NCBI GenBank assembly: GCA_001603275.1
Contig: LUYM01000023.1
Location: 124,001 to 188,000 of the forward strand
Direction: 5' to 3'
Origin: Actinomycetales bacterium Actino_02
Lineage (GTDB): Bacteria > Actinomycetota > Actinomycetes > Propionibacteriales > Propionibacteriaceae
Length of the DNA: 64,000 bases
Below the pieces are notes generated by a model. That model was given only the letters and a program-made list of their open reading frames with translations. It was not told the DNA's origin and did not search any database. Positions within the stretch are counted from its first letter, which is position 1. The number at the start of each line of letters is the position of its first letter. Of this stretch, positions 20,023 through 23,092 are shown piece after piece. Made by a program: the position numbers and the translations under genes.

Positions 20023-20063
20023 AGGGCGCGCAAAATGCACCTGCGACGACGGACGGGATGTAC

Positions 20064-20831
20064 ATGAGCGGTCACTCCAAGTGGGCCACCACCAAGCACA
20101 AGAAGGCTGCCATCGATGCCAAGCGCGGCAAGCTCTTTGCCAAGCTGATCAAGAACATCGAGGTTGCGGCCCGGACCGGTGGCCCCGACCCCTCTGGCAA
20201 CCCCACGTTGTACGACGCGATTCAGAAGGCGCGCAAGAACTCCGTCCCGGTGGACAACATCGACCGTGCGGTCAAGCGTGGCGGCGGTCTCGGCGGAGAA
20301 TCGGTGGACTACATCGAGATCACCTACGAGGCGTACGGCCCGGCCGGCGTGTCGATTCTGATCGAATGCCTCACCGACAACCGCAACCGGTCGGCAGCCG
20401 ACGTGAAGGTGGCCGTGACCCGCAATGGCGGCACCATGGCCGATGTCGGCTCGGTGTCGCGGATCTTCGACCGCAAGGGTGTGGTCGAAGTGGCCAAGGC
20501 CCAGGGCGGCAAGACTCTGACCGAGGACGACCTGCTTGAGGCCACCTTGGACGCCGGTCCGGAGGACGTCACCGACGAGGGCGAGGTCTTCAAGGTGATC
20601 AGCGATCCCAGCGTGCTGGTCGAGGTCCGCAAGGCCGTTCAGGCCGCCGGATTCGACTACGAGTCGGCCGAGGTCCAGTTCATGCCGCAGTACGGCCAGG
20701 CCATCGACTCGGTCGAGACTGCGGAGAAGCTGTTCAAGCTGCTGGACGCCATTGAGGACCTCGACGACGTGCAAAACGTCTACACCAACGAGGACGTGCC
20801 CGACGAGATCGGCGAGCAACTGGCCGAGTGA
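20064..20831 (+). CDS. yebC: YebC/PmpR family protein
   Basis: A 255-residue member of the YebC/PmpR family, known as DNA-binding regulators and, for some members, as translation factors that relieve ribosome stalling. Diagnostic segments: [25 protein letters not shown] at the N-terminus, [14 protein letters not shown], and [15 protein letters not shown]. An ATG two codons upstream (20058) is possible, but the family almost always begins MSGHSKW, and GGACGGG is well placed for 20064. It sits directly ahead of ruvCAB, as in many bacteria, with a separate promoter between them. Confidence 0.95.
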
Positions 20832-20869
20832 CCCGGCGTGGCAGCCGCGTGGCTGACGGCCGCGCGGGC

Positions 20870-20875
20870 TAGTCT
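20870..20875 (+). promoter_or_regulatory. -10 hexamer of ruvCAB
   Basis: TAGTCT is followed by six bases and an ATG at 20882. The predicted transcript starts on this ATG, which opens a 6-codon ORF ahead of ruvC. The LexA-type box begins on the base after the hexamer. Confidence 0.6.
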
Positions 20876-20891
20876 TCGAACATGCGTTCGG
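20876..20891. promoter_or_regulatory. LexA (SOS) box upstream of ruvC
   Basis: TCGAAC-ATGC-GTTCGG matches the known actinobacterial LexA consensus TCGAAC-N4-GTTCGA at 11 of 12 specified bases. It covers the predicted transcription start, where a bound repressor would block polymerase. Known biology: ruvCAB belongs to the SOS regulon in many bacteria. I saw no second box of this quality in the window. Confidence 0.85.
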
Positions 20892-20902
20892 ATGGCCGCT
20901 GA
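20882..20902 (+). CDS. predicted leaderless 6-codon ORF ahead of ruvC
   Basis: ATG CGT TCG GAT GGC CGC TGA encodes MRSDGR. Its ATG lies exactly six bases after the -10 hexamer, and its TGA shares an A with the ruvC ATG (TGATG). Because ruvC lacks a clear ribosome site, ribosomes could load on the leaderless ATG and restart at ruvC. The ATG is also the spacer of the LexA box, so coincidence is possible. No protein evidence is available. Confidence 0.4.
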
Positions 20903-21426
20903 TGCGGGTGCTCGGTGTCGACCCTGGCCTGACCAGGTGCGGAGTCGGCGTGGTCGAGGGTGGACCGGGCCGGCCCCTGCAGTTGGTCGCGGTGGGCGTG
21001 ATCACCACTCCGTCTGACCTGGAGCTTCCGCAGCGGCTGCTGCGGATCGAGGCCGGGCTGAGCGAGTGGGTTGCCGAGAACCGTCCTGACGCGGTGGCCG
21101 TCGAGCGGGTCTTCGCCGACCAGAACGTGCTGTCGGTGATCGGGACGGCTCAGGCGGCCGGGCTGGCCATGCTGGTGGCTGCGCGGGCCGGCCTACCGGT
21201 GCACACCCACACCCCGACCGAAGTCAAAGCGGCAATCACCGGCTCTGGCAGGGCGGACAAGGCCCAGGTCGGCGCGATGGTGGCCCGACTGCTCAAGCTG
21301 AGCGCGGCCCCGAAGCCGGCCGACGCCGCCGACGCGGTGGCGCTGGCCATCTGTCATCTGTGGCGCGGCGCGGCCGACGACCGGATCGCGGCGGCGCTGG
21401 CCCGACAGGGAAGGACGACCAGATGA
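20902..21426 (+). CDS. ruvC: Holliday junction resolvase RuvC
   Basis: Endonuclease (174 aa) that cuts Holliday junctions in complex with RuvAB. The catalytic acidic residues are in [14 protein letters not shown] (first Asp), AVERVF (Glu), and the C-terminal [14 protein letters not shown] (two Asp). The DNA-contacting segment [15 protein letters not shown] is also typical. Length is normal. ATG at 20902 overlaps the stop of the preceding 6-codon ORF, and the stop overlaps ruvA (ATGA). It is likely induced by DNA damage through the LexA box at 20876. Confidence 0.97.
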
Positions 21427-22025
21427 TTGCGCAACTGAGCGGGCGGGTGGCCGCCGTGGGCGGAACCTGGGTGGTGATCGAGCTTCACGGGCTCGGCTTG
21501 CGGGTCGCCTGCACGCCGGCCACCGCCGGCGGGGCCCGACCGGGGGAGCAGCTCAGTCTGCACACGTCCTTGGTGGTCCGGGAGGACTCACTCACCCTTT
21601 ACGGCTTCGCCGAGGCCGCCGAACGTGACTGCTTCGAACTCGTGCAGACCGCTTCGGGCATCGGCCCGCGGATCGCGCTGGCCGTGGTCTCGGTGTTCAC
21701 TCCCTCCGACTTTGCCCAGGCGGTCAGTTCCGGCAACACGGCGGCCATCACCAAGGTCCCCGGCATCGGGGCCAAAGGGGCAGCCAAGCTGGTCCTCGAA
21801 CTCAAGGACAAGGTGGCTGTACTGGCGGCCAGTGGGTCGTCCCGAGACCTCGGGGTGGTCTTCGGTGACTGGCGCGATCAGGTGCGTGGCGGCTTGGAGG
21901 GCCTGGGCTACTCCTCCCGCGACGCGGACGCGGCCTGTGATCAGGTGGCCGGGCTTGTTGAAGCCGAGCCGAACACGCCGGTGGCCGTGCTGCTGCGGGC
22001 CGCGTTGCGAACCCTGGCAAAGTGA
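21423..22025 (+). CDS. ruvA: Holliday junction branch migration protein RuvA
   Basis: DNA-binding tetramer (200 aa) that holds the Holliday junction and loads RuvB. Three domains: an N-terminal OB-fold starting [14 protein letters not shown], tandem helix-hairpin-helix motifs ([12 protein letters not shown] and [16 protein letters not shown]), and the C-terminal RuvB-contacting three-helix domain ([15 protein letters not shown]). The frame is open upstream, but the ATG at 21423 overlapping the ruvC stop gives the family start. Confidence 0.97.
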
Positions 22026-23092
22026 ACGCCGTGGCTTACGAATCCGAGTTCGACCCGCTGGATCCGAACGTCCATTCCGACGAACGGGCGGCCGAGTCGG
22101 CGCTGCGGCCCTCGGCACTGGCTGATTTCCGCGGTCAGCAGCGAGTCAGCGACCAACTCGGTCTGGTGTTGGCTGCCGCGCGGCAGCGGGGGACGGTGCC
22201 CGACCACGTCCTGCTCTCCGGTCCGCCCGGACTGGGCAAGACCACCTTGGCCATGATCATCGCCGCTGAGATGGGTGCTCCGATTCGGATCTCGTCGGGT
22301 CCGGCCATTCAGCATGCCGGCGACCTGGCCGCGATCCTGTCCGGACTGACAGAAGGCGAGGTCTTCTTCCTCGACGAGATTCACCGGATGTCCCGGCCTG
22401 CCGAGGAGATGCTGTACCTGGCCATGGAGGACTTCCGGGTCGATGTCGTCGTCGGCAAGGGTCCCGGCGCCACGGCCATCCCGCTGGAGATCCCGCGGTT
22501 CACCCTGGTCGGAGCGACGACGAGGGCGGGGCTGCTGCCCGGTCCGCTGCGTGACCGCTTTGGCTTCACTGCGCAACTGGACTTCTACGACAGCGCCGAT
22601 CTTGAGCACATCCTGGTCCGTTCGGCCGGAGTCCTGGGGATCCGGCTGGAGACCTCCGCGGCCGTCGAGATCGCCTCCCGATCCCGCGGGACGCCTCGGA
22701 TCGCCAATCGGCTGCTGCGCCGGGTCCGCGACTACGCGCAGGTGCACTCCGACGGCGTGATGACCCAGAAGATCGCCAAGGCCGCCCTCGAGCTCTACGA
22801 GGTGGATCCGCTTGGCCTGGATCGTCTCGACCGTGGCGTCTTGGACGCGCTGTGCCGCAGTTTTGGCGGCGGTCCGGTCGGCCTGACCACCCTCGCCTTG
22901 GCCGTGGCGGAAGAGCCGGAGACCATTGAGGAGGTGGCCGAGCCGTTCCTGGTTCGTGAGGGCTTCCTGATGCGGACGCCCCGTGGACGGGTGGCTACCG
23001 CCCGGGCCTGGCGGCACCTGGGGCTCACCCCGCCCACCCAGGCAGGCGTCGGCCTCGGCCAACTCGATCTATTCGACGACCCGCAAGGCTGA
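22022..23092 (+). CDS. ruvB: Holliday junction branch migration helicase RuvB
   Basis: AAA+ motor (356 aa) that drives branch migration on RuvA-bound junctions. The Walker A is [15 protein letters not shown], Walker B is [10 protein letters not shown], sensor 1 is [11 protein letters not shown], and the arginine finger lies in PLRDRFG. The C-terminal winged helix carries [17 protein letters not shown]. Start GTG at 22022 overlaps the ruvA stop (GTGA). It is the last gene of the ruvCAB unit; the following 100-base gap contains the promoter for yajC. Confidence 0.97.

Follow-up and report, generated by a model that had tools for sequence, protein, structure and literature searches.

The ruvC gene in the DNA analysed here (a stretch of 64,000 nucleotides from Actinomycetales bacterium Actino_02, called the window) is probably preceded by a LexA-repressed leaderless promoter, whose transcript would open with a start codon located inside the operator itself and whose first short ORF would deliver ribosomes to ruvC. 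For the window, this reading is plausible, not proven: it rests on a single evolutionary event, a chance of coupling of about 1.5%, a weak Shine-Dalgarno sequence and a parallel in the genus Aeromicrobium. In Aeromicrobium, a leaderless coupled ORF with its start codon in the operator is well supported by comparison of the respective loci.

Table 1. Positions of the promoter elements, the short ORF and the neighbouring genes in the window.
Feature	Position	Strand	Basis
yebC/pmpR, upstream gene on the same strand	20058..20831	+	PRK00110, TIGR01033
GCGTGGC	20836..20842	+	copy of an element that most ruvC box promoters have at a fixed distance ahead of the -10 hexamer
TAGTCT, probable -10 hexamer (TANNNT)	20870..20875	+	sequence; register recurs in 141/218 box loci
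CGAACATGCGTTCG, predicted LexA (SOS) box	20877..20890	no strand	box kept in 27/29 genus loci; genome with one LexA
six-codon ORF MRSDGR, start codon within the box spacer	20882..20902	+	sequence; predicted first transcript base; MRSDGC in sister G015
TGATG junction, short-ORF stop overlapping the ruvC start	20900..20904	+	sequence
ruvC	20902..21426	+	NCBIfam models
ruvA, ATGA overlap with ruvC (21423-21426)	21423..22025	+	NCBIfam model
ruvB, GTGA overlap with ruvA (22022-22025)	22022..23092	+	NCBIfam model

Positions 20870-20904 read TAGTCT-TC-GAACATGCGTTC-GGATGGCCGC-TGATG, and the earlier note, which had described a TAGTCT hexamer followed by six bases, an ATG opening the peptide MRSDGR and a TGATG on the ruvC start, is right to the base. 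The six bases between the hexamer and the ATG (20882-20884) are TCGAAC (20876-20881), and the ATG begins at the 7th base after the hexamer. Compared with TCGAAC-N4-GTTCGA, which we take to be the LexA-box consensus and used for scoring the site, TCGAACATGCGTTCGG agrees at 11 of 12 positions, which bears out the match that had been reported to start right after the hexamer; the arms of the inner 14 bases, CGAACATGCGTTCG (20877-20890), are perfect. The short ORF consists of the codons ATG CGT TCG GAT GGC CGC TGA, and the sequence agrees with the previous description in placing its ATG in the box spacer and the right half-site of the box within codons 2-4. The A at 20902 is common to the short-ORF stop (20900-20902) and the ruvC ATG, as expected of a coupled ORF whose stop overlaps the next start. 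The short ORF, ruvC, ruvA and ruvB form four frames overlapping head to tail (TGATG, ATGA, GTGA), and NCBIfam models bear out the identities of RuvC, RuvA and RuvB, with the RuvC of the window scoring above the cut-off of TIGR00228 and slightly below that of NF000711. Sequence, spacing and coupling geometry are all read directly from the DNA. As judged from RuvC, the close named relatives include Propionicimonas and other Propionibacteriaceae assemblies.

A palindrome of the type CGAACN4GTTCG occurs once in the window, namely as CGAACATGCGTTCG, where 0.065 occurrences are expected from base composition; since base composition predicts about three in the 3.05 Mb genome, the palindrome by itself says little, and the case for a LexA box is carried by position and conservation, as far as the sequence can tell. 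The box lies over the predicted transcript start and is kept in relatives, which is the pattern looked for in a LexA-regulated promoter, and a single LexA scoring above the cut-off (232 bits) is encoded in the genome (G000); in the roughly 300 bases preceding its gene, two further boxes of this type are present (L217). The layout at ruvC does not appear to be a general SOS device of this genome: the genome contains 47 GAACN4GTTC places, comprising the ruvC box, 41 others that were read and five that were left out (C26:6096; C30:140058, 177917, 193874 and 194297), and the layout was seen at none of the 41. Among these, a hexamer 1-3 nt before the box is present only at L228, where the spacer reads ATAC.

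For comparison, ruvC loci were collected from named genomes and from searches in the genus, family, order and class, giving 345 anchored loci, 313 of them distinct. Promoters were read in 104 of the 141 family genomes with ruvC, for the best 30 of 293 order loci plus a few chosen others, and for 70 of the 192 loci of the class search; L136 was left out because it had no anchor, and seven loci were added by hand. The pooled counts from this set are not frequencies, because Aeromicrobium was sampled for showing the feature, and the statistics are descriptive, because the loci share descent. Of the 313 distinct loci, 218 have a GAACN4GTTC box before ruvC, and its spacer begins with ATG in 55 of these 218. 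In all 55 loci, 2-3 nt separate a TANNNT hexamer from GAAC, which puts the ATG at the 7th or 8th base following the hexamer, and the same spacing is found in 86 of the 163 box loci without an in-box ATG, the background for TANNNT per upstream position being 4 in 12,644. The promoter of the window has a poor -35 region, with at best 3/6 matches to TTGACA at a spacer of 15, and this, together with the adjoining yebC gene on the same strand, might be taken to indicate that the transcript starts elsewhere, either at another base or upstream with yebC, leaving the box as operator or roadblock only. Such a start is improbable, as the register of hexamer and box recurs over genera and families, and as a read-through RNA is modelled to fold the box into a hairpin whose loop contains the AUG (-6.1 kcal/mol when only the 18 bases are considered).

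Of the 55 in-box ATGs, 26 are in frame with ruvC, 22 open an ORF that stops on the ruvC start, and seven do neither. In 25 of the 26 in-frame loci, no ATG, GTG or TTG is present at the usual start position of ruvC, and the in-box ATG is therefore the plausible ruvC start. Among out-of-frame cases, 22 of 29 real in-box ATGs are coupled, compared to 3 of 206 pseudo-starts (about 1.5%) placed 6-8 nt downstream of the hexamer in loci lacking an in-box ATG. Extending the count to ATGs that lie as much as two bases further inside the box gives 71, of which 31 are in frame, 22 coupled and 18 neither, and the GTGs in this wider count (n = 22) are distributed as 4, 1 and 17, respectively.

In the genus to which the window belongs, 27 of the 29 distinct ruvC loci have a box ahead of ruvC and two have none, with ruvC starting 24-31 nt after the first GAAC base and with a mostly identical register of TANNNT, two bases and GAAC. 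An ATG at the first spacer base is present only at 2/29 loci, namely in the window and in the sister genome G015, whose RuvC is 92% identical to that of the window. These two agree in 31 of the 32 bases before ruvC, in 26 of the next 38 bases upstream, and differ at 44 of the first 300 bases of ruvC; since they are sister species, they represent one evolutionary event, and within this genus the question of whether the linkage is conserved more than the peptide can only be viewed in these two genomes. Strict conservation of the short ORF across the genus is thereby rejected. The earlier note had regarded relatives that keep the box without the ORF as evidence against its proposal, and precisely this constellation is found at 25 of the 29 loci; as worded, this expectation was too strict, because the box loci without the ATG mostly have a better Shine-Dalgarno sequence before ruvC. 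In six of these 25, an ATG is located two bases further inside the box; it is in frame with ruvC in one of them (L021).

The strength of the Shine-Dalgarno sequences was modelled by pairing the last 15 bases upstream of ruvC with what we take to be the sequence of the 16S tail. The median pairing is -9.0 kcal/mol in 158 box loci without an in-box ATG, -3.8 kcal/mol in the 20 coupled loci of Aeromicrobium and -5.0 kcal/mol in the window pair, although coupled loci with real pairing exist (up to -11.0, L283). The previous statement that ruvC lacks a clear ribosome site holds insofar as the site is weak, with only L020 (-3.3) being weaker among the 29 genus loci, and fails insofar as it is not absent. 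Several genus loci without an in-box ATG are nearly as weak (-5.7 to -6.0). These values are among the points that would fit an ordinary SOS promoter, in which ruvC is translated from a weak GGAUGG, the ATG is a by-product of the preference of LexA boxes for RNRY in the spacer, and the ORF and TGATG of the window pair are coincidental. An ATG at the start of the spacer indeed fits RNRY, which counts against reading it as a start codon; in-box ATGs are rare outside Aeromicrobium (11/173) and mostly uncoupled there (7/11), and the 25 other box-bearing loci of the genus manage without one. Nevertheless, we consider an ordinary promoter rather unlikely in view of the low rate of chance coupling (about 3 in 206), the exact position of the ATG, which coincides with the predicted transcript start and would, as a 5' AUG, hardly be overlooked by ribosomes, and the presence of the same layout under evident selection in Aeromicrobium.

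The latter genus, referred to as g3 in our set, was assigned to Aeromicrobium by the identity of the RuvC and promoter of G318 with those of A. flavum (L107, L241). Together with three named loci, it contributes 45 distinct box loci, 44 of which have an in-box ATG: in 24 it is the in-frame start of ruvC (for example, ATG CGT TCC CTT CGT GTG CTC, encoding MRSLRVLG), in 20 it opens a coupled ORF of 8, 9, 10, 11 or 15 codons, and in none does it do otherwise. The TGA of the coupled ORFs overlaps a ruvC start codon that is ATG in 16 cases, GTG in three and TTG in one, and the second codon of ruvC is AGG in 19 and AAA in one of the 20 loci, its first A completing an ATGA, GTGA or TTGA overlap; AGG or AGA is found as second codon in only 4 of 158 box loci without an in-box ATG. 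The exact 14-mer TCGAACATGCGTTC is present in 41 of 49 Aeromicrobium genomes at 45 places, of which 38 are at ruvC, six elsewhere and one is unassigned. It is clear across the 20 coupled loci that the linkage is kept more than the peptide, and the relatives compared suggest that the in-box start layout is real and under selection in this genus.

Beyond Aeromicrobium there is little support, which matters for the window. The 11 in-box ATGs among the 173 box loci comprise two in frame with ruvC (Aestuariimicrobium kwangyangense L096 and L376 from another family), two coupled ones, i.e., the window and its sister species, and seven that are neither (five of genus g13, plus L112 and L315); counted by lineage, coupling is seen in one of four out-of-frame cases. 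A strong Shine-Dalgarno sequence (about -10 kcal/mol) precedes ruvC in six of the seven, and their ruvC therefore needs no coupling; the exception is L315, with a pairing of -0.4 kcal/mol and an ORF stop 11 bases ahead of ruvC. The five g13 loci (L146, L163, L164, L172 and L177) share an in-box ATG with an ORF of 10 codons, which extends into ruvC as far as a TGATG at ruvC codons 3-4, and have a good Shine-Dalgarno sequence for ruvC; this ORF may possibly compete with ruvC instead of being coupled to it. Another variant is seen in L158, L159 and L161 of genus g34, which are among the in-frame cases added by the wider ATG count. Their apparent ruvC start is an ATG located three quarters of the way through the box (GAACNGATGTTC), with proteins opening as MFEMKRIMG, MFESKRILG and MFEKKRILG, respectively; because these loci have AAG at the usual start position, their ruvC start must be either in the box or further upstream. 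The claim that the site would provide a compact coupling of damage induction to translation is partly supported, in that all 55 in-box ATGs are at the expected transcript start and 48 of 55 are in frame or coupled; it is weakened by the 25 of 29 genus loci with a box but without the ATG, and by only 4 of 11 being in frame or coupled outside Aeromicrobium.

The coupled ORFs have lengths of 6, 8, 9, 10, 11 and 15 codons overall and have in common only the MRS dictated by the box, and a conserved peptide was therefore rejected. Mapped on two RuvC trees, their length has changed 8 and 9 times with the window pair counted in, always by whole codons and always with the overlap retained. The window pair stands apart from Aeromicrobium in the RuvC tree, in which the starred branches force at least three changes of the coupled state, with moderate support for most of the tree (25 starred branches among 112 inner ones). 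A regulatory peptide, or an attenuator sensing via the codons of the short ORF, would have a precedent in some mycobacterial leaderless short ORFs that are rich in Cys and thought to be regulatory according to the accessible part of PMC4633059, but appears very improbable here, given that nothing beyond the box-dictated MRS is shared and that the predicted RNA shows no unusual structure over its first 60 nt (z 1.22). RNA structure as a regulator was also rejected from the values for 60 nt across the box (z 0.55) and for a 100-nt read-through RNA (z -0.18); the one exceptional value is that of the 18-nt palindrome (z -3.51), which is inevitable for a palindrome.

The preferred reading of the site as a leaderless LexA-controlled promoter includes LexA binding, the transcript start, leaderless initiation and restart as steps that we infer from the sequence. 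LexA bound to CGAACATGCGTTCG, which follows the -10 hexamer after a single base, would block RNA polymerase until DNA damage removes it, and transcription would then start at A20882, plus or minus a base or two, in the middle of the operator. The resulting mRNA would open with AUG, and ribosomes would enter it without a leader, read six codons up to the UGA and begin again at the ruvC AUG overlapping it, with ruvC, ruvA and ruvB being translated thereafter via their ATGA and GTGA linkages. The peptide itself would probably be unimportant, its first three residues being set by the repressor site.

A further-reaching view, which we put forward only tentatively and consider rather doubtful, is that the operator may serve as ribosome entry site, that translation of ruvCAB may depend on the promoter from which the transcript originates, and that LexA may gate translation as well as transcription. 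The 5' AUG would then be exposed only on transcripts starting inside the LexA operator, since an RNA starting at 20882 contains only half of the palindrome, and read-through from yebC would hide the AUG in the loop of the operator hairpin, leaving ruvC with a weak entry site. The idea that mainly the SOS transcript makes RuvC follows from this possible hiding of the AUG. If this were true, Aeromicrobium would possess two interchangeable forms, with ruvC either starting in the operator or following a throw-away ORF that hands the ribosomes on. 

Repressor site, transcript start and start codon can apparently persist as one object across a whole genus, with the half-site dictating codons and selection acting on the geometry of the downstream reading frame. 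The Aeromicrobium series and its leadered relatives constitute a natural experiment on whether leaderless short ORFs mainly deliver ribosomes. With respect to annotation, most Aeromicrobium loci read have the start of ruvC, or that of the coupled ORF, inside a LexA box.

Two further observations concern the control of ruvC in other lineages. In 115 of 158 box promoters of ruvC, an element of the type GCGYGBC (CGGCGTGGC-like) lies within 22-45 nt ahead of the hexamer, compared to 10.3 in shuffles, for a motif that was picked after the data were seen; in most of these promoters it begins at a near-constant distance of 33-35 nt ahead of the -10 hexamer, and it is possibly an activator site. Among the loci without a LexA box, 37 of 95 carry the pattern TTGTCRGTG-N8-TANNNT before ruvC, presumably representing a RecA-NDp/PafBC-like motif, as seen in L039, L043, L044 and L046-L048 (Streptomyces, Kitasatospora), while it occurs in only 1 of 218 box loci and the reversed-pattern control yields 0 in both groups. 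As judged from these sequences, the control of ruvC seems to change from LexA to the PafBC type between lineages. RuvA and RuvC are named among the PafBC-controlled genes in the accessible part of a review (PMC8223512). Seven other loci (L121, L123, L131, L133, L137, L147 and L151) have neither a nearby LexA box nor an ATG, GTG or TTG at the usual ruvC start, and the first Met of their core is residue 4 (RVMG).

The individual ingredients of the site are found in several known systems. In mycobacteria, a 5' ATG or GTG is necessary and sufficient for leaderless translation, and 23 of 220 leaderless short ORFs are RTGA-coupled, according to the part of Shell et al. (2015; PMC4633059) available to us. 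As described there, these coupled ORFs resemble those reported here in starting at the first transcript base, which for the latter is a prediction, in ending on the next start, and in keeping the linkage while the peptide diverges; they differ in that the start codon now lies inside an operator with codons 2-4 forming a half-site, and in that the overlap in the window is TGATG instead of RTGA, whereas the Aeromicrobium overlaps conform to the RTGA type as defined in that text. LexA and ruvC have 0 occurrences each in the same portion of the paper. TGATG itself is listed among the enriched overlap spacings in the available part of PMC12548453. Control of ruvC-ruvA by LexA has been established by ChIP-seq and RNA-seq in Streptomyces venezuelae, as given in the accessible text of PMC9380542, making ruvC a LexA target as proposed here; however, the box listed there is at -23 to the start codon, and that text mentions no short ORF and has 0 occurrences of the term leaderless. 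A leaderless SOS gene is lexA of M. tuberculosis, whose start codon coincides with the transcript start and which has no short ORF, and whose start codon is not described as part of the LexA box (PMC2897130, in the part available), and about 21% of the primary transcripts of S. coelicolor are leaderless (PMC4895711, likewise). No paper joining a LexA box, a leaderless start and a coupled ORF at one site was found in the open-licence literature. Each ingredient is thus known, and what appears to be new is their fusion in one site, in which the start codon is part of the operator.
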